Origin: Sisyra terminalis
Taxonomy: Eukaryota > Arthropoda > Insecta > Neuroptera > Sisyridae
Direction of reading: 5' to 3'
DNA: 64,000 bases
NCBI GenBank assembly: GCA_958496175.1
Contig: OY292280.1
Location: 3,038,001 to 3,102,000 of the forward strand
The notes under the pieces: model-generated
What the model was told of the DNA's origin: nothing
The model's input: the letters and a program-made list of their open reading frames with translations, nothing else
Databases searched by the model: none
Program-made: the position numbers and the translations under genes
Part shown: one piece after another, positions 4,912-62,110 of the stretch
Layout of the letters: every line of letters begins with the position of its first letter
Position numbering within the stretch: position 1 is the first letter of the stretch

Positions 4912-5123
4912 ACTATTTTTTTAAATAAGAAAATAATTCAGGTTGTTTAAAATAGGTTTTTTTATTTAATATTTTTACTATTCAATTAGCTACGTTTCGT
5001 TACGAATCGCAACTTCATCAGGCTTTTTGATTCACAAAAACAAAATATTTTCAATTTAAATTCAATAAATAAAATTGTCTTCTTATTTAAAAAAAATAAA
5101 AGCTGAGATCTGAATTTTATCGT
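4912..5123 (-). mobile_element. 212-bp hammerhead-bearing insertion with 8-bp target duplication
   Basis: The segment is flanked by ctattgag at 4904-4911 and 5124-5131. The family C paralogue at about 35010 shows the unoccupied site (ctcaatag on the plus strand), which supports a discrete insertion. Inside, ttttttaaataagaa near the left end is mirrored by ttcttatttaaaaaaa near the right end. The minus strand carries a hammerhead-like motif at 4981-5026. The length is in the range known for animal retrozyme monomers. Alternatively, it is a truncated Penelope-like terminal piece. Confidence 0.6.
4981..5026 (-). ncRNA. Hammerhead ribozyme motif, family D
   Basis: Read on the minus strand: CTGATGA at 5021-5015, one extra A, a 5-bp stem II (GTTGC with GTAAC, one G-U wobble, loop GATTC), GAAA at 4998-4995, a minimal stem III (ACGT), then A as the possible cleavage nucleotide. 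A 3-bp stem I is formed by AGC before the core and GCT after the cleavage site. All invariant core positions of the hammerhead consensus are present. An extra A between A9 and stem II is known from a chrysanthemum viroid hammerhead. Activity is inferred, not shown. Confidence 0.6.
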
Positions 5124-5215: not shown

Positions 5216-6401
5216 ATATTGGCATCGTCATTATATAAATCGCTACAATTCGGTATAAAAATCGCTCATAGTTAATTGGCTATTTAACCAGAAAAAAGGA
5301 AAAAATTTTTTTTTGGTTGGAAATAGTTATGTTTTAGACAAATTTATTTGATTTGTATGGTAGAGAAATGAAGAACTTGAAGATATATGAAGAATGTAAA
5401 TTATTCCTATTAGTATTTCTCTTTTTTTATACGAACAAATTAGTTTGACCACCAAACGACTAAAGAGGCAGGTCTCTAATCTAAAAGGAAAAAAAAAGCG
5501 GTCGTTAAAAGATTTTTTTTAACACTTAAAGTTGACGCATTGCTCAATTTCGAGTTTAACACTTTCAAGACAAAGCAATTACAATAAATTATCAATCTCT
5601 TAATTGGACGCAGCATTGATGATGGGCTTTTCGTGGAGTGGCCGTTCTACGTAAGTCGAGACCTGGTTTATGTTGATCGATTTGAGCGGCCAATGATTTT
5701 TAGCAGTGCTGATAAAACTCAATATTTATGATGGACTTCACTTAGTGATCTATTATGTCGAATTTTCGTGGGACATGAATTGTTTTCTAAAACGGTGTGG
5801 CCCAACATTGGTGACATCTTAATTTTTCACAAAAGCCTACATCATTTGGGCGCTATAAATACGTTGTTCCGATAACATTAGACACAAGAAATCAATTTGG
5901 TTGGCATTGATAAGCCGGTTAACAGAAAATACATATTCGGGTAACAATATTTTGTCGAGTTTGTCATCCTCGTTGTTCCACCCCGTGTAAATCCGTTGAG
6001 TTCCAGTCCCCCGCGAATACGCGATCTTTATCCAACCGGACATATATTACGTAAGTCGAAGCGTGGTCGCTCTAATTCGAAACCAGTCTGGTCGAAACTA
6101 TGCAACTCGTGATTGAAAAGATGAGAAAATTTTATGTTTTATTTCAATCACAACTATTTATTATTTCTCTTATCCAAGTGATTTAAGTAAATATATGTTT
6201 ACCTCCCACACACATGTCGTTCGGATAAGACAATGGAAATGACATATTTTTTCGTAAAAACCCGTTTTATTTTATTCGAATTTTTTTTGTCTCAACTCAA
6301 AAAAATAACTAAAATTTTTGATCAAAAATACTCTCAGAATAATCGATTTTGATTAACATTATTAATCGATATTATCGAAATTATCGAAAACATTATTTTA
6401 T
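5216..6401. other. No recognised gene or repeat
   Basis: The stretch is AT-rich. A short phrase, acgtaagtcga, occurs at about 5649 and again at about 6049. A 68-codon open frame on the minus strand at 5837-6043 has no recognisable product. Confidence 0.4.
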
Positions 6402-6683
6402 TCTGTGTACACATTATATAGAATATATTACGGTCCAATTTATGTAGTATAATTTAATAAAAAAAATATATAAAACTCATACCATAAACATAAATTTGAA
6501 CAGAAGTTCAAACAAAAATATTCGTCACGTATTGCCCTGATACGTATTTCGATTCTCAAGCAATCTTCCTCAGTTAGGTGAAACACCACAAAAAAGTTAC
6601 GGAGTGATCCAAACTACTTGATGACCACTGAGGAAGTTTTGCTTGGCAATCGAAATACGTATCTGGGCAATACGTCACGAAAA
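6402..6683. mobile_element. Hammerhead-B foldback element, degenerate (copy U)
   Basis: The left arm (6402-6572) reads in reverse complement: ctgtgtacac, the atttatgtagtataattt block, the cataaacataaatttgaac block, then a hammerhead-like core. In this core stem II is damaged (GATTGC faces GAATC). The partial right arm (6597-6683) is forward and carries CTGAGGA at 6638-6644, a modified stem II (one extra T region) and GAAATACGTATC. The spacer between the arms is only a few tens of bases, so the usual internal SINE pair is missing. Confidence 0.6.
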
Positions 6684-6689
6684 ACTTGT

Positions 6690-7100: not shown

Positions 7101-7214
7101 AATAGTAATATATGAAAATCATACCATTAACATAAATTTGAAGAAAAGTTGAAACAAAAATATTCGTGACGTATTGCCCAGACACGCATTTCGATTGCCA
7201 AGCAATCTTCCTCC
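7101..7214 (-). mobile_element. Hammerhead-B arm fragment (copy T)
   Basis: It is one arm on the minus strand: taccattaacataaatttga, then gacgtattgcccagacac, then the stem II hairpin. It stops inside the core (only the GAGGA end of CTGAGGA remains). The stem III palindrome is mutated to a gcgtgt-type sequence. Confidence 0.55.
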
Positions 7215-9372: not shown

Positions 9373-9584
9373 GTGAATCATCACAAAGCAGTTACGAAGT
9401 GATCCAAACTACTTGATGACCGCTGAGGAAGATTGCTTGGCAATCGAAATACGTATCTAGGCAATACGTCACAAATATTTTTGTTTGAACTTCTGTTCAA
9501 ATTTATGTTTATGGTATGATTTTTATATATTATTATATTAAATTATACTACATAAATTGGACCGCAATATATCCTATGTACACA
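9373..9584 (+). mobile_element. Hammerhead-B right arm (copy S)
   Basis: This is a single forward arm beginning gtgaatcatcacaaagcag. It carries the ribozyme-like motif and then the caaatttatgtttatggtat and actacataaattggaccgc blocks. No left arm or SINE pair precedes it, so it is a truncated copy. Confidence 0.65.
9413..9471 (+). ncRNA. Hammerhead ribozyme motif, family B
   Basis: CTGAGGA at 9423-9429, extra A at 9430, GATTGC-TTG-GCAATC at 9431-9445, GAAA at 9446-9449, TACGTA at 9450-9455, TC at 9456-9457. The core is intact, but stem I is weakened: cleavage would leave TAGG facing ACCG instead of the TGG/CCA of better copies. Confidence 0.5.
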
Positions 9585-9779
9585 ATTCACAATATCGTTT
9601 TTCCACCCTTGGAATACTAAAGGGGGATTATCGATCGAAAATTTTTTAAGGTTAAATTTATTATTCCCTAGTATCCATCTAATGCGAGGAAAAAGAATAT
9701 TTAGGAACAGAAGTGATTCGCGTTTGTAAATCACGGATATCTGTTCATCAAAATCGGTTGAGTGGTTCTATTTCGAAAA

Positions 9780-17369: not shown

Positions 17370-17796
17370 TAGGCGATTCACTCTCCGACTTGCAGTCCAA
17401 CTTGTGGTCCGACTTTCGAAGTTGGATCTAAAGTCGGACCAGGAATGGTGTTGTTAGAAGTTGGATGTCTAGTCTTGGATTAGTCGGATCCTTTAGGCGA
17501 TCCAACTAGTTGGACTGCAAGTGAGAGCAAGTCGAAGTTGGATCTAAAGTCGAACAGTGAATGGTGTTGTTGGAAGTTGGATGTCTAGTCTTGGATTAGT
17601 TGGATCATTTAGGCGATCCAACTAGTAGTCCGACTAGTTGGACTCCAAGTGGGAGCAAGTCGAAGTTGGATCTAAAGTCAAACCGTAAATGGTGTTGTTG
17701 GAAGTTGAATGTCTAGTCTTGGATTAGTTGGATCATTGAGGCGACCCAACTAGTATTCCGACTAGTTGGACTTCAAGTCGGAGCGTGAATGGCCTG
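17370..17796. mobile_element. TIR element with three internal tandem units
   Basis: The ends are inverted repeats of about 32 bp: ctccgacttgcagtccaact at the left, and ctccgacttgaagtccaact read inward at the right. Inside are three units of 116-128 bp. Each contains cgaagttggatctaaagtc (17417, 17533 and 17661) and ggatgtctagtcttggatta. The sequence is full of mirrored short words (agtcgga/tccgact, gttgga/tccaac), so it can fold extensively. It has no coding capacity. Class unknown. Confidence 0.65.
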
Positions 17797-19469: not shown

Positions 19470-20355
19470 AAAAAATAAATTCAATAAATTTCTGATTCGC
19501 TTACTGATGACCGAAAGGTCTAGATAACCACTACAAAACTGTTAAATTTTAAGATCGATCCTTGTATCGAGCAAATTTTTGATATTCCTCGATAACAGAT
19601 TTTTACTAATCCAAAGAAGCTAAAAACCGTCATGGAGACCTACTAATACAAAAGATGAACCGTCATTAGTGACCCAAGGGTTAATAAAAATCCGTAGTCG
19701 AGAAATATCAAAAATTTTCTTGATATGAGAAACGAACCCAAAACCTGCGAATTTTGCCGAGATTTCCTCGACCGCTTATCCACCAGTAAACTGAATCAGG
19801 AAAGCCAAGTTTTGACTCTAAAGTTCATAAAAGTTCGTAAATTGAGAAATATTTACCAATCAAGAACAGGCCAGTTTTTAAGCGATGATCAATGGCCCTT
19901 GTGCAGTAAAAATTACCAGAACATAAATAACACAGCATAAATGTTAAAGCAATGTCCCAATCGGTTGCTTCGTGTAAAACTACAAATACTTATTCCGATT
20001 GCCAATCAACTTTCTCCAGGGGTCATTACATAGTATTAATTTTCGTAGCTGCAATATAATGATTGCTGAGCAATCAAAATACGTATCTAAAATCATCCCA
20101 AAGCAGTTACCGAGTGATCCAAACTACTTGATGACCACTGAAGAAGATTGCTTGGCAATCGAAATACGTATCTGGGCAATACGTCACAATACGTCACAAA
20201 CATTTCTGTTTGAACTTCTATTCAAATTTATGTTTATGGTATGATTTTTATATATTATTAAATTAAACTATACTACATAAATTGAACCGCAATATATTCT
20301 ATATATTGTATAAACTGTATAACTGTTAAAAGTCAGCGAAAAAATCTTATTTTGG
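19470..20355 (+). mobile_element. Composite hammerhead/SINE element, left arm lost (copy Z)
   Basis: The order is: remnant of the inner left edge; a SINE-like head forward (about 19496-19630); a second SINE head reversed, ending near 19795 (cctcgaccgcttatccacca); a unique block with caagaacaggccagttttta; two degenerate inner hammerhead-like hairpins (about 19998-20030 and 20060-20088); then the complete right arm with an intact ribozyme motif. The arm ends ...gtcagcgaaaaaatcttatttt. It has the same order and orientation as copy X (28362-29194). Confidence 0.75.
20128..20189 (+). ncRNA. Hammerhead ribozyme motif, best-preserved family B copy
   Basis: The core is CTGAAGA (20138-20144), an extra A (20145), stem II GATTGC/GCAATC (20146-20151 with 20155-20160) around a TTG loop, GAAA (20161-20164), TACGTA (20165-20170) and TC (20171-20172), with the predicted cleavage after 20172. 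Stem I pairs CCA (20135-20137) with TGG (20173-20175). After a bulge on the 3' side, TGA (20132-20134) pairs with TCA (20184-20186) and TTG with CAA. Stem III is either two base pairs closed by ACGU, or an 8-bp duplex (ATACGTAT) between two molecules, as in known dimeric hammerheads. Activity is inferred. Confidence 0.65.
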
Positions 20356-22114: not shown

Positions 22115-23245
22115 TTATTACTGTTTATACAATATATAAAATTGTGGTCATATAATTAACATAAATAAACTATGAACATAAATTAGAACAAAAGTTAAAA
22201 AAAAAAAATGTTTTTTGACGAAATTCTCAGATACGTATTTCGATTGCCAAGCAACTTCCTCGGTGGTCATTAAGTAGTATTGGATCGATTAATTATACAA
22301 TAATACGGACATAAATTCAAAAATTGTTTGGGAGGTAATCAATCCATTCTACTGCAATATTGCGAGGAAAACAGTTACTTTTAAAATCAAATTAAACTTT
22401 TACTTCTCTTACTTTGAACAGTTACACTGTTAATACAATATCAGAAATATATTGAGAACCTAATTATTTTTTTCATTTTGCAAAAGTTATCTCCAAATAA
22501 TCATATATTTATTAAACAGATACGTATTTTGATAGCCAAGCAATCTTCCTCAGTGATCACCAAGTAGTACTGGATCGTTAATACATTAATTATGCAATAA
22601 AAAGTTTAATTAATTTATTAATTGTGAATTAAAAATTTGGAACTCATTTTTTTCACTTGATTATTCTCCACTTTATTCCATTGCAATATTGCAAGGAAAA
22701 AATGTACTCTTTGAAATCAAATTAAACTTTTAATTCTCTGACTTTGAGCAGTTAAACTGTTAAAACAATATCAGAAATATATTGAGGACTTACTTATTTT
22801 ATTCAATTTGCAAAAGTAGTCTACATATAAAGATAAATTTGAATAGTTCAGACAGAAACGTATTTCGATTGGCTAGCAATCTTCCTCAGTGGTCATCACG
22901 TAGTATTGAATCGTAAATTTATTAATTATACAATAAAACGTACATTTATTCATTTATTGAGTATAACAAATTTGGAACTGTTTTTTTTTTACTTGATTAC
23001 CTCTCACTCTACCCCACTGCAATAATTCATGGAGAAAAGTTATTCTTTGAAATCAAATTTTTATTCGCTTACTTTGAACCGTTACACTGTTAATACAGTA
23101 TAAGAAATATAATGAGGCCTTATTTATGCAATACAAATGGCAAAAGTAAACTATAAACAAACATTAGAGCAACAGGTTCAAACTAATACGTATTTCGATT
23201 GCAAAGCAATCTTTTTCAGTGGACATCAAGCAGTATTGATCGATC
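22115..23245 (-). repeat. Tandem array of about 330-bp hammerhead-B monomers
   Basis: Four minus-strand motifs lie at 22218-22278, 22518-22570, 22850-22902 and 23183-23230. The spacing of their tacgta or equivalent points is about 290, 336 and 331 bp. Inter-motif sequence is also repeated: ttgaaatcaaat, then ttacactgttaatacaata-like, then tatattgaggac-like, then caaaagta. Core changes differ between units: CCGAGGA in the first, AAAA for GAAA in the second, TACGTT in the third, CTGAAAA in the fourth. None is now fully consensus. Head-to-tail repetition is the expected product of RNA circle or multimer reverse transcription, or of satellite amplification. Confidence 0.65.
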
Positions 23246-24360
23246 TGATTTGATCTGATCTGAAAAAGATTCACTTAATACAAATCATGTGATACAAATC
23301 AAGTAAACAAAATAAAAAAGCGCTTTGTGTTGGACAAGTAGAAAGGGAATAGAAGTTTTAGTGTGGGTATCTAATGCAAGTATTTGCGTAGATTGGCGCT
23401 CTTTGGCGCTCATTGGCACTTGAGAGCACTTAAAGTTGACAATGATCCCCTAAGAAAAAAAACAGATTGTCTCGATATATAAGTCTGATAATTCGATATA
23501 TTGTCTACCAATAATAAATTATTGAGGTCATATTTAATTTTAGGTGACCTCAGCTTTAACTAAAAGCTTCCATTTATTCTTAAATAGGTGATGACTATAT
23601 CAAATAGCCAACGTAGGCAGAAGTCAACTTGACAGGCTTTACTATGCCTATATTCAAAGAACCAAATTAACCATACCCTTTAATAAAATGGAAGATAAAT
23701 GGAAGATAAATGAAGATTACGAATTTTACTTTTATCATTCAATGAAAAATGTATAAAACAGCGAAAATGGGACGAACGGGATCCAATGGTGGATGGATTT
23801 GTCGAATATTTAAACAGTGTTAATTCATGCTGCCGATTCAATTGTTTTATTTTCTTTGATTAAATCGTGAAAAAAGAAAATTGTTCGTAAATATAGAACG
23901 GTGGGTTGGGATTTAATTAAAGATTCAATACAAATGCAAACAATGGAGACAGAGGAATACAAGTTTCCTTTTCATTTAGCGTTACACCATATTCATATCA
24001 AATAAACCTATACATATAAATTTGATTATTTTTTTGTCCAAATTGAATTTTCCAATGAAAACCGAGAGAAAATTTCAAATGTCAACACATTGGGATTTCA
24101 ATTCAAATTATTCAAAAGCTGCAAATTTTCATTGTTCATTAGTTATATTAAAAAAGTTCATCAATTATTATTTGATTTGATTTGCGTTTATATTTTAATA
24201 TAAATATTAATCTCAAATGAATCGAAACAATAAAATATTTTTTTTTATTTCATAGTTATTAAAACAAAAACTAGAACTTACTTCTTCAATTATTAATAAT
24301 ATTCAAAGATATACTGGTTTAAGTTCAAGCTATATAATCAACCTCTTTTTAGATACTAGA
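23246..24360. other. No recognised gene
   Basis: AT-rich. The phrase gtgggtatct lies near 23370 and a short duplication (aaatggaagataaatg) near 23690. Nothing else was identified. Confidence 0.4.
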
Positions 24361-28009: not shown

Positions 28010-28260
28010 AAAAATTACATTTAAGTATTGAAATTTAAAGTTACTTGAAAGTGTCATGGCGTCGCTTGTGACGTCATGATTGTTCTAGCAAAACATAAAC
28101 AGATGTTATAGGAACTTGACAGTTAAATTGTGTTAAAAAGAATTAATATTACTACCTGAAGAAGTCGGGAAACCGAAGAAACGTTTCGAACAAAAATAAT
28201 AAATTTAAAATAAAAAAAGAGAATATAAATATTTATTAAAGTAACTATGGAAAAGAACCG
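28010..28260 (+). mobile_element. Penelope-type terminal fragment with hammerhead-like motif
   Basis: At 28156-28162 CTGAAGA is followed by A, then TCGG-GAAA-CCGA (28165-28176), then GAAACGTTTC. This fits the hammerhead order but with a G/A mismatch at the base of stem II and almost no stem III, so it is probably a decayed copy. Similar strings terminate Penelope-like elements. Family D (4981-5026) and 53930-53990 carry related versions. Confidence 0.4.
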
Positions 28261-28361
28261 TCTAAACATAAGGCAATGAATCACTAAATATAGTAAAATA
28301 AATATTATATTTACATACACTTAGCCCAATAGAAAGAAATTCATATCTTGCCCATTACTTT

Positions 28362-29194
28362 ACCAGATACGTATTTCGATTGCCAAGCAATCTTCCTCAG
28401 TGGCCATCAAGTAGTTGGGATCACTCCTTAACTGCTATGTGATGATTCACAAAAATTCATAAATTCCTGATTCGCCTACTGGTGGTCTAGATAACCACTC
28501 CAAAACTGTTAAATTATAAGATCGATCCTTGTATCGAGCAAATTTATGATATTTCTCGATTACAGATTTTTACTAACCCAAAGTAGCTAAAAACCTTCGT
28601 AGAGACCTACTAAGACTAAAGATCAACCGTCATTAGTGACCCACCCAATTTTGCAGAGGTTTCCTCGACCACTTAACCACCAGTAGACTGAATCAGGAAA
28701 GCCAAGTATTGACTCTAAACTTTATAAAAGTTCGACAATTGAGAAATAATTACAAATCAAGAACAGGCCAGTTTTGAAGCGATGATCAATGGCCCTTGTG
28801 CAGTAAAAATTACCAGAACATAATTAACACAGCATAAATGTTAAAGCAATGTTCCAATCGATTACTTTGTGTAAAACTACAAATACGTATTCCGATTGCC
28901 AATCAACTTTCTCCAGTGGTCATTACACAGTATTAATTCTCGTAGCTGCAATATAATGATTGCTGAGCAATCAAAATACGTATCTAGAATCATCACAAAG
29001 CAGTTACGGAGTGATTCAAACTACTTGATGACCACTGAGGAAGCTTGCTTGGTAATCGAAATACGTATCAGGGCAATACGTCAAAAATATTTTTGTTTGA
29101 ACTTCTATTCAAACTTATTTTTATGGTATGTTTTTTTATTTAATATCATACTACATAAATTGAACCGCAATATATTCTATATATTGTATACACA
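28362..29194 (+). mobile_element. Composite hammerhead/SINE foldback element (copy X)
   Basis: The left arm is short and reversed with an intact ribozyme motif. Next come a forward SINE head (gcctactggtggtctagata at 28465), a tail-to-tail reversed SINE (head at about 28660-28690), the caagaacaggccagttttga block (28758), and inner hairpins (about 28884-28915 and 28957-28990). The right arm holds a second motif at about 29024-29090 (stem II GCTTGC/GTAATC, weakened) and the arm end near 29194. The order equals Z and is the reverse of Y. Confidence 0.75.
28363..28412 (-). ncRNA. Hammerhead ribozyme motif, family B, intact
   Basis: On the minus strand: CCA (28403-28401), CTGAGGA (28400-28394), extra A, GATTGC-TTG-GCAATC (28392-28378), GAAA (28377-28374), TACGTA (28373-28368), TC (28367-28366), TGG (28365-28363). 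All conserved core bases and the 3-bp inner stem I are present. Confidence 0.6.
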
Positions 29195-30769
29195 CTATAG
29201 TACATAAATTAGCCTTTAATATAGCTTAAACGTTTTATTAACAATGCAAGTATAAGATTAGAAATTTCTATAATATGTAGATACGATTGGCCTCAAGTAG
29301 CAAACGATTTGGCGGCATTTTTAAAGCAAATGTTTGCATTTTTGAATCGTTAAATGTTCGAATACTTGGAGTATATAAAAAATCAAAAAGAAAAGTTACC
29401 AAAAAAAAAGAAAGAAATTATAATCGACTTTTAGGGCAAAGCACCTGAAGAGTACGTCATAGGCTTGTTACTTAACTGTATCGCAATTGAGAAATTTTGA
29501 TCGAATCTTCGAAAAAAATACGTTCAACTCACTTTGTGTAAGTTTAGTCGAGAAGAAGTTACGAAATAAATTTTGTATTACTATAAACATAAATATAATA
29601 ACATTATCTTCAATCTATATTAATAAACAGGCAAAGCCAGAAGAATGCAAGTCGTATAGCAAACACATCGGTTCCCTAAAGCCATACTATTTTTTTTTCA
29701 TTTTTTTTTTACGTACATAATTTTTAAGACGAGATTCAAAATACTGAACATAAGTGTGAAATGATTTATGAGCGCTTAAAAAAATAGAGACCCATAAATT
29801 TCGATTGGTGTTTTTCAGTTTTTTTTTTTTCTCTTTTCTTCAGAACAAGAGCTGTACTCGTACGTATTATTGCGGCCGTTTTAAAACGATTTGATTGTCA
29901 AATTCGATTAGTTGCGGTTTTATATGTAAATGTAATATGATATAATTCATTTTTTGTGATTTCATTGGTAAAATCATAGATATTTCTCTAATGTATTTAA
30001 ATGCTAGAAATTAAATGATTTGCAACACTATTTTTTTAAATAGTTGGCATCCCTGTTATGGAAAGCCAAAAGAAAATCATTAGGTCCATTACTAAGTTTG
30101 ATTTTCAATTTTATTTAGGATGTATTCCACTTGGCGCCTAAAACATCCGATGGATAAAATTAACTTATTATAAATTGGTAAAAATATTTAGAGGACTAGG
30201 ATCAAATAATAATCAGTAAGGAGTCCGTTATTTCCCAAATTGCCTTTTTTACAGCGATAGCCTCCTGAATTTTTAGTATAAGATACAAAAAAATTACCCA
30301 ATACAATTAAGCTCATAATTTCTTGATTAAACCGTGCCAGAATCATGTTACTTTTACCATTTAAATAACATGGCATTATTTGACTTTTAACTTTTAATTT
30401 TTTTCTCAGAAACAAATGTATGAAAAGATTTAAGATTAAATTATTCTGACGTAAAATTTAACGCTCTACAAAAAAGGTCTCTTATAAAATATCGATTAAA
30501 TCACTCCATTAAAAGTTATTCAACATTCATCCAAAAAGTTTTTCCAGATACTGAAAAGTAACTTAGATACCTAGGTACCCAGAGATTAAATACAAAGTTT
30601 TATTTTGTGGTCATATTGATGAAGTACAATTGTATAATTATACCTACAAATATTTATGTGTTAATACTGTTTTTTAATTCTAATATAAAAAAAAATGCAA
30701 TTTAATGTATTAAACCACTTTCCTTGCAAAATCTTATATATTGCAATAAAAAATACCTTTTTTCAAATG
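29195..30769. other. No recognised gene; one dispersed-repeat fragment near 30460
   Basis: AT-rich. At about 30460-30480, aacgctctacaaaaaaggtc is the reverse complement of the ttttttgtagagcg phrase found near 6850 and 50750. Frames of 75-77 codons at 29487-29720 and 30188-30415 have no recognisable product. Confidence 0.4.
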
Positions 30770-33240: not shown

Positions 33241-33489
33241 TTTCCACAATATGTTCGAGAGTTGCCAACATACCAAATTAGTATATATTTTGGTTTCTAT
33301 GTCTCTCTACCGAGTGAAATTAATTAAACTGTGAATATAGAAAAATCCCACAATATTTACCCAATTATATCGTGTATACAATATATAGGTTATATTGCGG
33401 TCAAATTTATGTAGTATAATTTAATATAATAATATATAAAAATCAAACCATAAACATAAGTTTGAATAGAAGTTCAAACAAAAATATTT

Positions 33490-33553
33490 GTGACGTATTG
33501 CTCAAATACGTATTTCGATTGCCAAGCAATCTTCCTCAGTGGTCATCAAGTAG
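33490..33553 (-). ncRNA. Hammerhead ribozyme motif, left arm of copy Y
   Basis: On the minus strand: CTTGATGACCA, CTGAGGA, extra A, GATTGC-TTG-GCAATC, GAAA, TACGTA, then TT. The cleavage nucleotide would be T rather than C, which is tolerated (any base but G) but usually slower. Stem I keeps CA/TG pairing. Confidence 0.5.
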
Positions 33554-33602
33554 TTTAGATCACTTCGTGACTGTTTTGTGATGATTCTAGATACGTATTT
33601 TG

Positions 33603-33742
33603 ATTATTATTATTATTATTATTATTTATTACCAGGATGTAATACATTCATATTTACATACAAATTTTTTATACATAGATATGCACCTATAGAGATGAAG
33701 CAAATCATCTGTGCATAGGCCCGGTTTTTTTTTTGTTATATT
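33603..33742 (-). mobile_element. Nested non-LTR 3' tail with (TAA)n
   Basis: The insertion separates two halves of a hairpin that is contiguous in copies X and Z (ttttgatt ... attgctcagcaa). On the minus strand it ends tacatcctggtaataaataa, then TAA repeats, a tail type used by some non-LTR elements (I-clade elements end in TAA repeats). It is short, and the clade is a guess. Confidence 0.45.
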
Positions 33743-34375
33743 GCTCAGCAAACATTATATTGCAGCTACGAAAATTAATACTGTGTAATGACCACTGGAG
33801 ATAGTTGATTGGCAATCGGAATACGTATTTGTAGTTTTACACAAAGCAATCGATTGGGACATTGCTTTAACATTAATGCTGTGTAAATTATGTTCTGGTA
33901 ATTTTTACTGTACAAGGGCCATTGATCATCGCTTCAAAACTGGCCTGTTCTTGATTTGTAAATATTTCTCAATTTACGAACTTTTATGAACTTTAGAGTC
34001 AAAACTTGGCTTTCCTGATTTTCAGTCTACTGGTGGCCAAGTGGTCGAGGAAACCTCTGCAAAATTGACTGGTTTTGGGTTCGTTTCTCATATCAAGAAA
34101 ATTTTTGATGTTTCTCGACAACGGATTTTTATTAGCCCCAGGGTCACTAATGACGCATGATCTTTAGTCTTAGTAGGTCTCTACGAAGGTTTTTGGCTAC
34201 TTTGGGTTAGTAAAAATCTGTGATCGAGAAATATCATAAATTTGCTCGATACAAAGATCGATCTTAAAATTTAACAGTTTTGGAGTGGTTATCTAGACCT
34301 TTTGGCCCCCAGTAGGTGATCAGGAATTTATGAATTTTTGTGAATCATCACAAAGCAGTTACGGAGTGATCCAAA

Positions 34376-34440
34376 CTACTTTATGACTACTGAGGAAGAT
34401 TGCTTGGCAATCGAAATACGTATCTGAGCAATACGTCACA
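34376..34440 (+). ncRNA. Hammerhead ribozyme motif, right arm of copy Y
   Basis: CTGAGGA (34390-34396), extra A, GATTGC-TTG-GCAATC, GAAA, TACGTA, TC. Before the core is ACTA and after the cleavage site TGAG, so stem I retains its innermost pair but weakens outward. Confidence 0.55.
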
Positions 34441-34700
34441 AATATTTTTGTTTCAACTTCTATTCAAACTTATGTTTATGGTATGATTTTTATATATTAT
34501 TATATTAAATTATACTACATAAATTGGACCGCAATATATTCTATATATTGTCTACACAGTACAACTGTTCAAAGTCAGTGAAAAATTTTTATTTCAATTA
34601 TATCGATTATATAAGTATAAAGGAAGAAAAGAGACAAATCAATAAAAATTTGAACAAGTTAATAACAAATTTTCTTGTTTTTTTTTGCCCACAATTCTAT

Positions 34701-36877: not shown

Positions 36878-37281
36878 TAGCTACTTTGGGTTAGTAAAAA
36901 TCTGTAATCGAGAAATATCATAAATTTGTTCGATACAAGGATCGATCTTAAAATTTAACAGTTTTGAAGTGGTTTTTTAGACCTTTCGGCCACCAGTAGG
37001 CGAATCAGGAATTTATGAATTTTTGTGAATCGTCACAAAGCAGTTAAGGAGTGATCCAAACTACTTGATGACCAATGAGGAAGATTGCTTGGCAATCGAA
37101 ATACGTATCTGGGCAATACGTCACAAATATTTTTGTTTGAACTTCTGTGCAAATTTATGTTTATGGTATGATTTTTATATATTATTATATTAAATTATAC
37201 TACATAAATTGAACCGCAATATATTCTATATATTGTATGCACAGTATAACTGTTCAAAGTCAGCGAAAAAATCATATTTTG
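36878..37281 (+). mobile_element. Right half of a composite hammerhead/SINE element (copy W)
   Basis: It begins inside the reversed SINE (ctactttgggttagtaaaaa), passes its head (gacctttcggccaccagtag at about 36990-37009), and then the whole right arm to ...gtcagcgaaaaaatcat. The ribozyme core at 37064-37132 has ATGAGGA instead of CTGAGGA (first core base changed), which should disable it. Confidence 0.7.
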
Positions 37282-38999: not shown

Positions 39000-39240
39000 T
39001 TAAAACTTTTTCTCCAAAAGTATCCTAGATACTGAAAAGTTTTTAAGCTACAAGGTACAGGTCCTTTAAAAAAGTATCTAAGATACTAGTTATCCTTTAA
39101 CCCAAAAAATAAAGGAACTAAGAGAGTATCTTAGTTCCTTTAAAGTTTCTAAGTATCTTAGATACTTTATAAAAGAAACTGTATCACGTAATTTAAATAA
39201 TATCTTAGATACCGAAAAGTAATTTAAATACCTAAATACC
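39000..39240. repeat. Palindrome-rich tract with a 14-bp perfect hairpin
   Basis: Repeated palindromic words agtatctaagatact and atcttagatact are scattered through this stretch. At 39110-39142, TAAAGGAACTAAGA faces TCTTAGTTCCTTTA across a 5-base loop. A shorter relative (agatactgaaaagtaactta) lies near 30546. It may be the tip of family C or a separate foldback MITE. Confidence 0.5.
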
Positions 39241-39902
39241 GAGAAATACGACTTGTATAAGAGGCTAATTATATTATTGACTTAAAATTAAAAGTGGTAC
39301 CAAAATTTTGTATTTTAATTGTTTATTGAAAAACGACCATACTTTCCGGGTCTCCTTACATTATCGAGACTGGAACTACTGAACTTAGGTACTGTTTCAG
39401 GTACTTCAGGTACTAGACTAAATTGTTATTTAAAGAATGTCGTTTCCAAACCAATAATCATTTAATTGCCATTTATCAGCTTATAAGTTAATCCAAAGTG
39501 GTTCTAAAAACATTCTATGGTTAGAGTAATTTATCAACTTAGTAAAAATTACAAACTATTTTTTATTCCGAAATCTTTAATGAAATGATAGGACCAAAAA
39601 CCCGAAAAAATATAAATTCAGTATTGTTTGCTAATCGAGTTTCACAGGATAGCAACGCAAAGTTGTTACGAAAAACATTTTCAATGCTTATCTAAGTGCA
39701 TTATACCTAAAAGTGTCCCATAATACTCAAAAGTGTTCAAAAACTGTTAACAGATAGAATTCTATGCTGCAATATGGTAATGTAAGACCCTGGGACTGAT
39801 CATATTATCGATTTAAAATCAATAGTTATAACAAAATTTTGTGGTTTAATTGTATAATGAAGAAATGACATTCTTTTCCAGTACACCTATTATTTGACTT
39901 TT
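39240..39902 (-). mobile_element. Family C element, third copy
   Basis: It contains attgtttattgaaaaacgac, then catactttccggg, at one edge and the coding-like frame at about 39545-39700 (KTRKNINS, SQDSNAKLLRKTFSMLI, then stop) matching 35532-35720. Middle parts are deleted compared with the 34.9 kb copy. Confidence 0.55.
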
Positions 39903-40975
39903 GAATTCCGGTATTAGAAAATTGTACAAACGGCAGAAAATAATAGTTGGTATTTTAGTATACCGGCATAGTATTTCCTAGTTCCATGGCAGTTGAATTT
40001 TGTAATCACCAGAGAATTGGATATCTTCTTATGTGGTCTCTAATCTTTTGATATTCTGATAAAAAATTGGTTTTATTAAATTGGAATTGCCAGAGAAAAC
40101 AAAGGGTGAAAAAGTAAAACAAAAATAATTAGTGAAAAAGTATTATACATTTTGTATTTCTAGCATTATAATATCAGTATAACTAATTTCATCCGGTAGG
40201 GAAAAATAAAAACAAAAACTTATTCTATTTTGGAATGATGGCAACCCTTGAACATATAGTGGTGCCAACTTACAAAATTTCTAGTAAATTCCGAAAAATC
40301 GATATATAAACTTATGAATTCCGGTAATAGAAAATTGTACAAAGGGCAGAAAACACCAGTAGTTGGTATTTTAGTATACCGGCATAGTATTCCCTAGTTC
40401 CATGGGAGTTAAATTTTGTAGTCGTCAGAGAATTTGATATCTTGTTATGAGGTCTCTATTCTTTTGATAATCTGATAAAACATTTGGTTTTATTAAACTG
40501 GAATTGTCAGAGAAAACAAAGGGTGGAAAAGTATTAAAAAAAATAATTAGTGAAAAAGTATTATACATTTTCTATTTTCACCTTTATATTCTCAATTTAA
40601 CTAATTTCATCCGGTAGGAAAAAATAAAAACAAAAACTTATTCTATTTTGGAATGATGGCAACCCTTGAACATATAGTGGTGCCAACTTACAAAATTTCT
40701 AGTAAATTTCGAAAAATCGATATTTAAACTTATGAATTCCGGTATTAGAAAATTGTACAAACGGCAGAAAACACCAGTAATTGGTATTTTAGTATACCGG
40801 CATAGTATTCCCTAGTTCCATGGGAGTTGAATTTTGGAATCGCCAGAGAATTGGATATCTTGTTATGTGGTCTCTATTCTTTTGATAATCTGATAAAAAA
40901 ATTGATTTTATTAAATTGGAATTGCCAGAGAAAACAAAGGGTGGAAAAGTATTAAAAAAATAATTGGTTAAAAAG
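39903..40975 (+). repeat. Satellite-like tandem repeat, about 415-bp unit, 2.6 copies
   Basis: Units start at gaattccggtattagaaaat (39903), gaattccggtaatagaaaat (40316) and gaattccggtattagaaaat (40734), with periods of 413 and 418 bp. Shared landmarks are agtataccggcatagtat, ctagttccatgg, aaacaaagggtg and atagtggtgccaactt. The third unit ends near 40975. Identity is high by eye, so the duplication is younger than most repeats here. Confidence 0.75.
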
Positions 40976-41040
40976 TTTTGATCGGACGGTAAACCGTTAT
41001 GAAGTGCAGGTTCGATTACTGAAATGATTTCAATTGAATT

Positions 41041-44415: not shown

Positions 44416-45085
44416 TTTTCCATTATCCTTAGTAATTCCTTGATAGTTTTGATAACTAGATCATTATTCATTGATTTTAAAAATTGTATTTAAAAACATA
44501 TGGAACAAAAATTTCTATGGATAAAACAAGAGATACCACAAATATTCGGCTACTTTTCTTTAAAATTCAAATTCTGCCGAATATGGCATACTATTCGGCC
44601 GAATACCGAATACCAAATCCTCAAAAAAAAAAGAAAACATATTTTACTCAAAAATATATTAAGGGGACCGGAAAGTAATATCATTTTTTGAATCAATGAT
44701 ATAATCAACTTTTCGACATCAAGGATACAAATTTTCAATTCTTAATATAAAAAAAAAGCAATTGACTACAAAGCAAAATATCTGTAAATCACATTTTCAT
44801 CATCATACTTAATGATAGCATTACACCTGTCACCCGCGAAATGTACTAATTGTAAATTGTGTAAAATGACTGGTTACTCATAAAATCGCATGGCAATCGA
44901 AATGCGTAAAAGGAGGCAATAAATTTTTCAATAAAATTCTGGAAAATAAGGTTACAATAGTATTACTGTATGGCGACTTCCAGGTAACCAGATAGAGGTG
45001 ATAAATTAGATCTGTTTTCTTTCTTTTTTGATTGGCATTTCTTTGGGACTAGTCCAAAAATATTTGATTTGTAGAATCCAAACTT
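44416..45085 (+). repeat. Segment B, copy 1 of a 1.2-kb duplicated block
   Basis: It is nearly identical by eye to 58343-59006, starting at ttttccattatccttagtaa. It includes caagagataccacaaatatt, the ttaaggggaccggaaagtaa word (shared with family C edges), and a degenerate hammerhead-like hairpin fragment (gcatggcaatcgaaatgcgt at 44889-44908). It directly precedes a pogo-like element in both copies, so the whole block was copied as one. Confidence 0.65.
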
Positions 45086-45584: not shown

Positions 45585-46140
45585 TATAGGGTTTTGAAAA
45601 GTAACAATTTGGGATATAAACATTTCGATTTCTACAAAGTAAAAGTCGGGAAAAAGCTTCTTCTGGAATACCTGCCAAACTTTTCGGATAATTGGTGTTG
45701 CAATAAAAACGGAGGACAAGGAGAAAATAAAAGAAGGCAGAATTATGAAATAAAAGTATAAATTAATAGAATTTCCATGTGTTTTGGAAGTATTACCATA
45801 AGTAGTTCAGGAAGTATATTTTTGTAAATAAACCACCGAAAATATAAACCTTGCCAGAAGTGATGCTAGAATTTTAGTAAAGAAAGTCAAAAAAATTTTT
45901 TTGAGATTTTTAACATTTAATTGGTTTAGGAATTTCATTGATTATTTTTTCTTGTTTTAAATTCGGTTGGAAAGGGGGCAACTGCCCCCTTAATCTTGTC
46001 CTTGCTTGATTTTACTAATAGATCAACTTTCCACAAAGAATTCCGAAGAATTTTGGAAATAAATTTTTTATCACCAAAAACTAAATGGAATTAAACATCA
46101 TAGTTACCTACACTTGGTTCAATAGTGACGGTACAATTCA
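45585..46140. other. No recognised gene
   Basis: AT-rich; nothing identified. Confidence 0.4.
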
Positions 46141-46141
46141 T

Positions 46142-46299
46142 TACTACTTGATGACCACTGAGGAAGATTGCTTGGCAATCGAAATACGTGTCTGGGCAAT
46201 ACATTTCTTTAAACTTTTGTTCAAATTAAAGTTTATAGTTTACTTTTGTAGATTATATTATATAAATATGACCACTATATATTTTGTATAAATAGTACG
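46142..46299 (+). mobile_element. Solitary hammerhead-B arm variant
   Basis: A forward ribozyme motif is followed by a diverged arm (cttttgttcaaattaaagtt, then tatagtttacttttgtagat) that resembles the 22.1-23.2 kb monomers more than the foldback arms. No second arm. Confidence 0.6.
46148..46200 (+). ncRNA. Hammerhead ribozyme motif, family B
   Basis: CTGAGGA (46158-46164), extra A, GATTGC-TTG-GCAATC (46166-46180), GAAA (46181-46184), TACGTG, TC, TGGG. Stem I keeps CCA/TGG. The palindrome in stem III has one change (TACGTG), which still permits the innermost A-U pair. Confidence 0.5.
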
Positions 46300-50984: not shown

Positions 50985-51107
50985 TAATGCCTTTATATAT
51001 ATATATAAACAAACTATCCCTGACAATTGATCCTTCGGTTATTAATTATCAATTTTTGTACACTGGTTTCTTTTCTAAAAAATAAGCACTTTAATGCAAA
51101 GTTAAAG

Positions 51108-51635
51108 TCAAAATAAGATTTTTTCGCTGATTTTGAACAGTTATACTGTGTACACAATATATAAGATATATTGCGGTCCGATTTATGTAGTATAATTTAA
51201 AATAATAATATATAAAAAACATACCATAAACATAAATTTGAACCAAAGTTCAAACAAAAATAATCGTGACGTATTGCCCAGATACGTATTTCGATTGCCA
51301 AGGATTTTGAGGATTCGGTGAAAGTAAAGCAATTTGGGAGCACACCCTCCTCCATAACCACATTGCAAAAAGAGAAAGGCACGACTTATAAATTGAGGTG
51401 AATCCGTGATTATTTTGTGAATCATCACAAAGCAGTTACGGAGTGATCCAAACTACTTGATGACCACTGAGGAAGCTTGCTTGGCAATCGAAATACGTAT
51501 CTGGGCAATACGTCACGAATATTTTTGTTTGAACTTCTGTTCAAATTTATGTTTATGCTATGATTTTTATATATTATTATATTAAATTATACTACATACA
51601 TTGGACCGCAATATATCCTATATATTGTATACACA
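51108..51635. mobile_element. Hammerhead-B foldback element with 12-bp target duplication (copy V)
   Basis: It is flanked by gcaaagttaaag at 51096-51107 and 51636-51647. The paralogous empty site in unit B at about 52054 has one diverged copy. The left arm begins tcaaaataagattttttcgc and the right arm ends at tatattgtatacaca, about 40 bp short of the full mirror. The interior is about 110 bp of unrelated sequence (gattttgaggattcggtgaa onwards) instead of the SINE pair. The left motif is broken off inside stem II; the right one is intact. Confidence 0.75.
51457..51517 (+). ncRNA. Hammerhead ribozyme motif, right arm of copy V
   Basis: CTGAGGA (51467-51473), extra A, GCTTGC-TTG-GCAATC with one mismatch in stem II, GAAA (51490-51493), TACGTA, TC, TGGG. 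Stem I has CCA/TGG and then TGA/TCA as in the 20128 copy. Confidence 0.55.
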
Positions 51636-52345
51636 GCAAAGTTAAAGGTCATTTCCGTTTCGTCATTTTATATTTCTATATTTATTTTATTCCCTAAGGT
51701 CTTACATAATTTAAAATCCTCCTTCCGTTTTAGTTAACAATACCAGATCGTCAGCGTATTTGGTAGCTTTAATTGTTCGTCCACTAATTGTAGCCTTCGC
51801 ATTTTTCCAGAACTTAATTTGTCAACTATTGTACAAATATGGATGATAATTTATAATAATTTTGTCGAGGATGATGTGTTTACGTCATTGATATCGTAAA
51901 TTACTATTCCAAAGGTGATCCATCGAAAATAACTTATAACTTCTCGTTCTTTGTATATATATATAAACAAATTATCCCTGACAATTGATTCTTCGGTTAT
52001 TAACTACCAATTTTTGTACACTGGTTTCTTTTCTAAAAAAAAGGACTTTAATGTAAAGTAAAAGGTCATTTCTGTTTCGAAATTTTACATTTCTAAATTT
52101 ATTTAATTCCCTAAGGTCTAACGTAATTTAAAACCCTCCTTTCGTTTTACTTAACAATACCAGATCGTCAGCGTATTTGGTAGCTTTAATGGTTTTGTCC
52201 AATAATTGTAGTCTTCGCATTTTTCCAGAGCTTAATTTGTCAACTATTTTACAAATATGGATGATAGTTTATAATAATTTTGTCGAGGATGATATGTATT
52301 CCTAAGGTAATCCACCCAAAATAACGTATAACTTCTCGTTACTTT

Positions 52346-54392: not shown

Positions 54393-56159
54393 ATGAAATA
54401 GGACAATTTTCGAAATTTATTAATCATTAATTCTTTATAGATTTAAATTTTTTTTATAGCGCTGTTCGTAATTGAATCGATTTTATTTCAAATTTAGTTT
54501 ACGAGTCATAATCATCCTCTATTTTTACCGCATTTGAAGAAATGTTGAATTTTTCAAGTTAAACGGAACTCTATTAACAATTTGGTTCCAGTTCCAAAAC
54601 TTTCCAACTCTATGGTTTTGGTTGTCTACCTTAGTCTCAATATACATAGAAAATTTTCGAAAAAACAATATCCTATAGCTAGCTGATTGAACTTTGTGCG
54701 CATGGCAATGCGCATTAGTAACTACAGAATTTTCTCGCCATTTAAAATTAATCAACGATGATTCACAACTTCCAGCTATAATTTTATTAAATCATCAAGA
54801 AATCGAATTCTAAAACCCCAAATTTTTCTTTTTAAATAACGCATACTAAACAAGGATAATATTTTTTGTATCCCCACTTCTAGAAACCTTTTTAAACAAT
54901 TAAAGTTTTACAGTTTTTATACTCAATAAATTTAAATGGGACAGCAGAAATGGGTTTGACTGTATCTTCGATTTTCTTTTTTTTCCTAGATAATTTTTAT
55001 GCCAGGGGAATGACAAAAAGGTGTAACCTTTCCACGTTGAAGTTCTACTTTATTTGATTAAGTTGCTTGTTTTTAGTAAACATCAGGCTGTGTCATGTCA
55101 AACGTCAAAAAATAAACACATTATGTATGTAAGTGCTTTAATAATATGTTAATTTATTCCTGTTTGGTATCCTTAAATGAGGTTGATTAAATTTTGTTGC
55201 ATTAATAACATAAAACAAAGATTTTCGACATAAATTTAACATTTTGATATTAACGAGTTAATAAATTTCCACTTCCTTGCTTTATTTTTTTTTTTTGTAT
55301 TGGTATTCTTGATTTTCAGCAAAAAAAAAACACAATCATAAGGAACAAAAAAAAACTGTTCAAAATAATTCTTCAACTATTCAAAACCGTTGGAGACGTT
55401 CATTTGCTTAAAACCGAATCTTTTATCGAACGATCGAAGGTAGGCACTTTGTTAATTTACGCGTTCTCAAAAATTTGGACATGGCTTAGTAATTTTTTCG
55501 ACCACTAGCAGCGCATTGTCGTGAAAAACTAGCATAAAATATATTGAATAGTTATTGCTTGTTTCCCATACTGTCATACTGTGATTGTTATTCAAACTGA
55601 AGTCATAACTGACAAAATATTTCATTCATGTGCTTCCTATACAAATAATTATAAAACCAATGAAAGACAATAAGCGCTTATTTGTGAAGATTGGCGCCAA
55701 TGGGTACTTAATTGCCTGCTGTTGCTTTAAATGAACATTAATTGCAAGATAAAAAAAATAACAATGAACCCTCTATACTAAACCTCTGTGTTTTAAACTT
55801 GTTATAAGTATCATCATAACTTTACCCTACGATTGTCCTAATCCAGAAATTTTAAATTCGTCTCATTATCTTGAAGCTGACATTTTTGAAGATTTTACTT
55901 CTATCGCATGTTTTTCTTAATATGAATAGAATTTAAAAAAAAATGGCATTTTGTTATATTAAATTTACTTTTATAAAAATATATAAATTTCATTTAATAT
56001 AAATTAGCGACCAGATGCCAGAAAATGTATGTGTAGGGCCCCTTTTACCCCTTCAATACATTGTCTGGCTTATCTACCAGCTCCAAAGAAATATATCATT
56101 TGAGAATCATTGTTCACTATGAATTGCGGCTTAAATGCTATAATGTATTTGTAAAATTT
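54393..56159. other. No recognised gene
   Basis: AT-rich with A- and T-runs. A 76-codon minus frame (54525-54755) has no recognisable product. Confidence 0.4.
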
Positions 56160-56335
56160 TACTCAGACACGTATTTCGATTGCCAAGCAAATTTTATCAA
56201 TGGTCGTCAAGTAGTATCTGTTCATAAATGTTCTGTGATGAGTGACACAAGTAGCAGTTATGGAGAGGTCCACTACTTCTGGAACTATGATGAAGCTTGC
56301 TTGGCAATCGAAATACATAACAGGAATTATATAAT
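56160..56335. mobile_element. Degenerate inverted pair of hammerhead-B motifs
   Basis: The minus-strand motif at 56162-56216 keeps GCTTGGCAATCGAAATACGT, then GTC, but the core is TTGATAA. A plus-strand partner at about 56288-56330 keeps gaagcttgcttggcaatcga and loses the stem III palindrome (tacata). It has the foldback arrangement in miniature. Confidence 0.55.
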
Positions 56336-58342: not shown

Positions 58343-59006
58343 TTTCCATTATCCTTAGTAATTCCTTGCTAGTTTTAATAACTAGAACATTATTCAATGA
58401 TTTTCAAAATTGTAGTTAAAAACATATGGAACAAAAGTTTCTATGGATAAAACAAGAGATACCACAAATATTCGGCTTCTTTTCTTTAATATTCAGATTC
58501 AACCGAATATGGCATACTATTCAGCCGAATACCGAATATCAAATCATCAAAAAAAAAAACATATTTTACTCAAAAATATATTAAGGGGACCGGAAAGTAA
58601 TATCATTTTTTGAATCAATGATATAATCATCTTTTCGACATCAAGGATGCAAATTTTCAATTCTAAATATAAAAAAAAGCAATTGACTACAAAGCAAAAT
58701 ATCTGTAAATCACATTTTCATCATCATACTTAATGATAGCATTACAGCTGTCACCCGCGAAATGTACTAAGTGTAAATTATGTAAAATGACTGGTTACTC
58801 ATAAAATTGCAAGGCAATCGAAATGCGTAAAAGGAGGCAACAAATTTTTCAGTCAACTTCTGGAAAATAAGGTTGCAATAGTATTACTGTATGGCGACTT
58901 CCAGGTAACCAGATAGAGGTGATAAATTAGATCAGTTTTTTTTTTTTTTTGATTGGCATTTCTTTGGGAATAGTCCAAAAATATTTGATCTGTAGAATCC
59001 AAACTA
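58343..59006 (+). repeat. Segment B, copy 2
   Basis: It matches 44416-45085 through its whole length, with small indels. It is followed, as in copy 1, by a pogo-like element. The duplicated block is therefore at least 1.1 kb. Confidence 0.65.
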
Positions 59007-61949: not shown

Positions 61950-62110
61950 TATATGATATATAAAATATAACGTTTTAATTTCCAAAAAGAACAATAAGCA
62001 TCAATTTGAACAATTCAACCAAATGTATTTTTGACGTATTTCGATTGCCATGCAATCTTCCTCAGTATTCATTAAGTAGTGTGGGATCGTTTCTTAAGTG
62101 ATTCGTCACA
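61950..62110 (-). mobile_element. Solitary hammerhead-B arm, degenerate
   Basis: The minus-strand core CTGAGGA, A, GATTGC-ATG-GCAATC, GAAA, TACGTC is nearly complete (about 62035-62076), but the second half of the stem III palindrome and the TC are lost. The arm (aatttgaacaattcaacc) resembles the 22-kb monomers. A possible far part lies at 62460-62540. Confidence 0.55.

Follow-up and report, generated by a model that had tools for sequence, protein, structure and literature searches.

The hammerhead motif at 20128–20189

The stretch of 64,000 nucleotides analyzed here (the window) was found to contain a dispersed repeat family, one copy of which carries a putative minimal type I hammerhead at 20128–20189 on the forward strand. 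The motif was recognized from its letters and by a strict descriptor, and its fold class was assigned through covariation in the genome (see below). Its elements follow each other as the 5′ strand of stem I, CTGAAGA, an extra A, stem II, GAAA, ATACGTAT, C17 and the 3′ strand of stem I, and this was exactly the order, with the same letters and coordinates, that had been described in an earlier note on this DNA. Stem II consists of 6 bp (GATTGC-TTG-GCAATC) and stem I of 3 bp (CCA/TGG); the latter pairing, also claimed previously, was present in 77.8% of the cells in a comparison of 12 sequences, and CCA/TGG is the only part of the longer, bulged stem I of the earlier note that can be regarded as safe. 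The TACGTA segment singled out in the earlier note was shown to be self-complementary, but the full unit is the 8-base, self-complementary ATACGTAT, which supplies A15.1, stem III and U16.1 and is followed by C17. Cleavage is predicted between positions 20172 and 20173. Directly 3′ of the predicted cut, this copy contains a 10-base duplication that is absent from the other copies of the family in the window.

In a monomer, stem III could form at most two pairs closed by a 4-base loop, and the 8-base palindrome could close stem III in a dimer. When the given RNA was folded as a single strand, the hammerhead reached −2.5 kcal/mol compared to −9.6 kcal/mol for the preferred alternative fold. The dimer hammerhead formed through the palindrome was calculated at −20.9 kcal/mol, two monomers at −19.2 kcal/mol and the best duplex at −27.6 kcal/mol.

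The repeat family within the window

A family profile built from seven copies was searched against both strands of the window, and rows with E ≤ 0.02 were kept. This gave 27 family rows, 23 of which scored more than 25 bits, in good agreement with the about 20 copies estimated before. All 11 core positions were intact in 10 of the 27 rows, and the copy at 22889(−) became the eleventh after correction of a gap. Position N7 was read as A, G, or T, so that it was indeed variable. The loops reported for stem II (TTG, ATG, and TTT) were all found, and besides these TAG, AAG, and TGA occurred. An intact core, C17, all six pairs of stem II and all three pairs of stem I were found together in 3 of the 27 rows (20138, 46158, and 28400(−)). 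These three and an unrelated motif at 5021(−) were also the matches to the strict descriptor, for which a mean of 0.025 matches was obtained in 200 Markov sequences. In over half of the 27 rows the core is either broken or absent, and these copies are probably dead.

When the window was scanned for a perfect core combined with a perfect stem II, nine matches with the extra base (eight of them from the window family) and none without it were found; in the control, the class with the extra base gave one match in 60 Markov sequences. The extra A was present in every family sampled, where the pattern used on the genome demands this A and both classes were looked for in the window (9 vs. 0).

The motif matched at 5021(−) extends over 4988–5024 on the reverse strand and belongs to a different family (CTGATGA, A, GTTGCG/CGTAAC, GAAACGTA). 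It contains the same extra A, and close relatives of it were frequent among the genome matches listed.

Within the window family, the covariation that had been proposed as a check was not observed: among 12 sequences, 0 of 11 pairs had changed on both sides. As no pair had changed on both sides, the alignment of the window family cannot prove the fold. A covariance model made from 12 window copies recovered the family, and since the independent motif at 5021 reached only E 4.7, this model does not generalize. Several copies showed an arm starting with the palindrome TTTGTGA-ATCA-TCACAAA.

Arms and insertions in the window

The motif at 20128–20189 lies in an arm (pseudo-LTR, pLTR) at 20091–20354(+), whose tail (...GTCAGCGAAAAAATCTTATTTTG) ends at 20354. 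A degenerate inverted hammerhead arm, in which core positions A6 and A13 read G, is located head-to-head with it at 19981–20064(−). One insertion, at 33373–34594, consists of a tail-less arm at 33587–33373(−) and a tailed arm at 34342–34594(+), the tail of which matches the tail string with five errors; pieces of a tRNA-like SINE lie in its interior. It is flanked by the target site duplication CAATTATATCG on the left (33362–33372) and on the right (34595–34605). Another insertion, at 51108–51635, contains a tailed arm (−), in which the 5′ half of the hammerhead is broken, and a tail-less arm (+) with a hammerhead at 51464–51504, and it is flanked by GCAAAGTTAAAG at 51096–51107 and 51636–51647. 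The target duplications thus measure 11 and 12 bp in the two insertions, and for the 12-bp case an empty site was detected: a paralogous repeat lacking the insertion is present at 51949–52345(+), and an alignment of this repeat with the two flanks put together matches at 85.6% over 424 columns, 29 of which are gaps. An exact-match search for target duplications around the tailed arms at 20 and 37 kb revealed none.

Further head-to-head arms were found at 28280–29200, where arms at 28448–28363(−) and 28987–29200(+) lie around a SINE piece, and at 6399–6685, where the arms (6574–6399(−) and 6580–6685(+)) are 5 bases apart; no tail was found at either locus. In the hammerhead at 28363–28403(−), the core, C17, stem II and stem I are all intact. 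An old head-to-head pair with broken cores occupies 56145–56324 (56241–56145(−) and 56253–56324(+)). Single arms were present at 46136–46299(+), with a complete hammerhead at 46155–46195, at 9375–9598(+), with a hammerhead at 9420–9460 that has an intact core, and at 37027–37281(+), where a tail is present and the hammerhead core is broken at C3. In addition, there were two partial arms, one at 7102–7214(−) with C3 missing and U4 changed, and one at 61964–62107(−) with an altered stem III and cut-site region.

Half of a hammerhead, from stem II to the cut, abuts the start of the next arm at 20051–20090; the same was seen at 28958 and, in a broken-up form, near 33602(−). Weaker hammerhead-like relics were noted at 28156–28190(+), 44883–44921(+), and 58804–58862(+), one of which possibly belongs to another family.

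A composite that occurs at 19.5–20.3, 28.3–29.2, and 33.4–34.6 kb contains pieces of the tRNA-like SINE between or beside the arms. This SINE is itself dispersed, with heads at 34028(+), 19788(−), 31201(−), and 16 further positions, and has a box A resembling TGGCCGAGTGG; a box B resembling GGTTCG was found in 6 of the 19 heads with a loose pattern. Some of the SINEs lie between or beside inverted hammerhead arms.

Hammerhead patterns in the host genome

The host genome (376.6 Mb, 11 contigs) was scanned with a generic pattern, CTGANGAAG-N-CGAAACGT, written as CTGANGAAGN{7,23}CGAAACGT, which demands the extra A. It gave 8311 exact matches (4103 + 4208), compared to a single match for the reversed-pattern control. 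The form of the window family, with CGAAATACGTATC, gave 4301 exact matches (2131 + 2170) and none with the reversed control. For each pattern, the first 100 matches were listed, all of which lie on the first contig.

For stem II, 44 distinct sequences were picked by eye among the first 100 generic-pattern matches listed; the first pair is set by the search pattern and was left out, so that pairs 2–5 were scored. A standard pair was present in 92% of the cells compared to 51% after shuffling, and 0 of 5000 shuffles reached the observed value. When each group defined by three stem letters was represented by a single sequence (16 groups, among which related variants may fall in separate groups), the values were 91 and 47%, again with 0 of 5000 shuffles.

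Stem I was analyzed in 41 distinct motifs with at least four pairs in stem II, taken from genome loci (designated by L numbers) other than L001 and L040. In the register that skips exactly one base (H17) after U16.1, the three pairs formed at frequencies of 0.78, 0.83, and 0.71, which was reached in 0 of 5000 shuffles, and in 4 of 5000 when one sequence per group was used (10 rows). The other registers behaved differently: skipping no base or two bases was equaled in 3400 and 4872 of 5000 shuffles, respectively, and skipping three bases in 195 of 5000 when all rows were used and in 1476 of 5000 when each group was represented once. The base at H17 was A in 13, C in 11, T in 11, and G in 6 of the 41 rows. 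G is disallowed at this position; all six rows with G belong to one family (GGTC), where the next bases would permit a cut two bases later. N7 was T in 21, A in 11, and G in 9 rows. Both stems covary across families, which supports their reading as a hammerhead fold, so that the hammerhead interpretation of the earlier note and the covariation check it proposed, which had failed within the window family, were borne out by the genome samples (0 of 5000 shuffles for each stem).

Pairing of arms and distribution of tails

Most close neighbors were arranged head-to-head. Among the first 100 generic-pattern matches listed, neighbors within 1 kb were head-to-head in 23 cases, tail-to-tail in 2, and on the same strand in 1, and among the first 100 matches listed for the window-family form the corresponding numbers were 16, 1, and 1. 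The motif often occurs in pairs in the genome, with the minus copy on the left and the plus copy on the right. Within the window, the neighbors among the 23 rows were head-to-head in six, tail-to-tail in one, and on the same strand in five cases; the mean for head-to-head neighbors under random strands is 3.0 (P = 0.026), where three of the six cases are derived from a single composite.

Side-by-side comparison of the arms of five families showed that one arm of a pair ends early and that its partner runs 30–40 bases further, this extension being the tail. Since 20 loci had been chosen for holding close pairs, the frequency of pairs is no test in these loci, and the number of tails is. Among 39 pairs, drawn from both the loci and the window and scored with tail strings that derive from part of the same loci, exactly one tail was found in 33, none in 5, and two in 1, where the second tail matches that of another family with five errors. 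The five tail-less pairs include two from the window (6.5 and 28 kb) as well as L026 and L050, for whose families no tail string was supplied to the scoring. By arithmetic at the observed rate, independent placement of tails would give about 8 pairs with two tails and about 12 with none. The longest match of the tail-side flank to the other side was, as a raw count, at least 12 bases in 9 of the 33 one-tail pairs.

Self-matching arms in L010, L012, L022, and L033 end approximately 65–85 nt 3′ of the cut. In the window family, the arm continues 3′ of the cut for 132 and 134 nt at the two tail-less ends and for 170, 172, and 182 nt at three ends with a tail, and the distance between arm end and cut thus varies between families.

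A tandem arrangement was found at 22119–23252(−), where four hammerhead blocks are spaced 290–336 bases apart; three of the cores are broken and the one at 22889 reads as intact. Such an array of low GC content resembles the metazoan non-LTR retrozymes (PMC7229834), in which tandem repeats of approximately 300 bp with type I hammerheads are mobile as circular RNA. Reading the whole family as a retrozyme is nevertheless improbable in our judgment: it is the one hammerhead array in the window, the close neighbors are mostly head-to-head and not in tandem, the tails and target site duplications follow the anatomy of Penelope-like elements (PLEs), and the hammerheads are of the minimal, stem III-poor type and not classical.

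The arms could also be regarded as the inverted repeats of a Foldback- or MITE-like DNA element, as they are inverted and flanked by target site duplications, with the conserved hairpin in the long inverted repeats acting as a binding site for a protein on DNA and not as a ribozyme. Conservation is indeed concentrated in the block hmm34–85, where 361 of 399 positions were conserved compared to 475 of 639 in the flanks (eight divergent rows). A binding site of this kind does not predict CTGANGA and GAAA with a free N7, free stem letters and exactly one skipped base at the cut, nor does such an element predict one tail per pair, and we consider this explanation very improbable, still more so than a retrozyme.

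Coding capacity and neighboring sequences

The window contains 44 open reading frames of at least 84 amino acids; no Pfam match above cut-off, and hence no PLE protein, was found in the 40 that were scanned, and protein searches with three window ORFs gave nothing at E ≤ 1. A search of the genome for the GIY-YIG domain (PF01541), in which 107 candidates were scored, gave a single match, which by eye is probably the host gene SLX1. Seven loci in which the motifs lie on the same strand or far apart were searched for a PLE protein, and only a piece that by eye is LINE-like was found. As no PLE protein was present among the sequences scanned, the arms seen are probably non-autonomous or truncated.

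Frames near hammerhead arms that by eye resemble pieces of a LINE reverse transcriptase (Jockey-type) were observed in L009 (179–547(−)) and L061 (819–1211(+)). Other frames near hammerhead arms, in L024/L025 and L006, resemble by eye a DHX35-type helicase and an arthropod Dpr-type immunoglobulin protein, suggesting on the basis of these similarities an arthropod host and intronic insertions.

Probable relationship to Penelope-like elements

The inverted arms, the single tail per pair, the target duplications and the empty site match the published anatomy of PLEs, and we therefore consider it very likely, although the earlier note made no such connection, that these repeats represent PLE insertions, either non-autonomous or heavily truncated, made up of pLTR arms with minimal type I hammerheads that contain an extra A between A9 and stem II. 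Both the anatomy of PLEs and their minimal hammerheads are already published, and the present set adds one more member, in a setting that is unusually rich and regular. Its unusual features are the lack of a visible ORF in the arms, the copy number, and the additional A in the core, which the search pattern demands.

Minimal type I hammerheads of PLEs were reportedly described by Cervera and de la Pena in 2014 and by Luense, Weinberg and Breaker in 2017. Their presence in PLE pLTRs and their dispersal by thousands in animal genomes have been reported (PMC7761336, PMC6155905). The present set shares with the published PLE hammerheads the order of the core, the diminished stem III, the thousands of dispersed copies, the link to pLTRs and the proposed action as a dimer, and it may differ from them in the extra A after CUGANGA, a feature that the search pattern itself requires. 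To our knowledge, CChMVd offers the only known parallel for an extra core A. In agreement with the earlier note, which had pointed to a chrysanthemum viroid, the plus-strand hammerhead of CChMVd has an extra A (A10) at this place, between A9 and G10.1 (PMC3705267); CChMVd is a viroid RNA, whereas the present motifs form a genomic repeat family.

The arrangement of the arms is closest to that described for PLEs of Adineta vaga (PMC3846280), where an insert completed by an inverted pLTR was reported, with one of the inverted pLTRs bearing a 31-bp tail and with a 9-bp target site duplication, and where head-to-head was the most frequent arrangement, with palindromes at the junctions and foreign DNA between the pLTRs. 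Pen2a_Av and its relatives thus share with the present insertions the head-to-head inverted pLTRs, the single tail, the short target duplication, the junction palindromes and the non-element DNA between the pLTRs. In contrast to the thousands of motifs found here, the copy number was low there, and that paper never uses the word hammerhead (PMC3846280).

For PAc, a Poseidon PLE from Anolis carolinensis, the protein was reported to cut and extend both target strands, and two RT start sites bound a tail of 30–40 bp (PMC11167929). The PAc hammerhead lies at the junction of pLTR and ORF, cuts only with the protein, and was dispensable for insertion in vitro. Its cut is located 26 nt and the RT start 111–118 nt into the ORF, and from these published positions we infer that the RT start lies approximately 85–92 nt 3′ of the cut (PMC11167929). 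PAc shares with the present set a minimal hammerhead near the end of the pLTR, a tail of 30–40 bp, and an insertion end a short way 3′ of the cut. It differs in consisting of tandem repeats with an ORF, whereas the loci sampled here showed head-to-head arms in which no PLE ORF was seen (PMC11167929).

A possible route to the observed insertions can be outlined from these comparisons. A PLE protein would be supplied in trans, and reverse transcription of pLTR RNA would be primed from the two ends of a staggered break in the target. One end would start at an inner site and the other at an outer site, which would account for the tail, and the two cDNAs would then join head-to-head. Self-priming has been published as an alternative (PMC3846280), and the palindrome at the arm start would fit it. 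The hammerhead may trim read-through or tandem transcripts. If active, the ribozyme would work as a dimer joined by the palindromic stem III (AUACGUAU), perhaps aided by the PLE protein, with the cut at 20172/20173.

A different role for the conserved segment, overlapping with the PLE reading, would be that of a former, now inactive hammerhead retained in the pLTR for binding of the PLE protein or for the RT start. At least one of the core, C17, a full stem II, and a full stem I is lacking in 24 of the 27 window rows, the extra A moderately slows the viroid hammerhead (PMC3705267), and PAc inserts in vitro without cleavage, with no reads reported to end at its cut site (PMC11167929). On the other hand, different families have kept the core and both stems as a set, and binding of a protein does not by itself account for this. 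We regard inactivity as rather doubtful, though much less so than the retrozyme and Foldback explanations.

The PLE reading can be extended, with considerable reserve, to a more specific proposal. One genome would hold more than 12,000 such motifs (8311 + 4301) in pLTR-only PLE insertions, the motifs being a subclass whose catalytic core has an invariant extra A; the head-to-head, one-tail arrangement would be the footprint of two-ended priming from two RNA start sites; and the ribozyme would act on an RNA dimer held by the PLE protein. We put this combination forward as a tentative hypothesis that is more likely than not to be wrong at least in part.

The role of the hammerhead in PLEs was called unknown in a review (PMC7761336). 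With thousands of motifs in several families that have the same cut geometry, with tails and with one empty site, two open questions become testable, namely whether cleavage matters for insertion and how inverted insertions with one tail arise.

Database searches and other repeats

The Rfam hammerhead models, proposed earlier as a check, gave no match in the window at any of three settings (the curated cut-off, E ≤ 5, and, for a short stretch, E ≤ 10). In 16 other loci, each with at least one pattern match, no hammerhead was found up to E 5 either (in L018, stem II is damaged). Since these 16 pattern-matching loci were also unmatched, the silence of Rfam has no discriminating power where this stem III-poor type is concerned, and the Rfam hammerhead models miss the class sampled here (0 of 16 loci, E up to 5). 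Several of the matches to Rfam microRNA families in the 16 loci are located on inverted repeats and look like hairpin artefacts. In the window, a weak match to the MIR9486 model at 39193–39047(−) (E 0.0052), far below the cut-off, is probably a chance hairpin.

Two hammerhead patterns had no match in a collection of viral contigs, and one had none in a collection of genome contigs. The single match of another pattern in the genome contigs was located in an archaeal frame with 62% GC, showed no stem II by eye, and was dismissed as chance. No published description of this particular set was found in the literature searched, outside which most subscription literature lies.

Besides the dispersed repeats, the window contains two tandem arrays. 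The one at 17416–17784 consists of 128-bp units with 83–92% matches, and the other, at 39897–40976, of 2.6 copies of a 418-bp unit with 91% matches, pieces of which recur near 33.2 kb.
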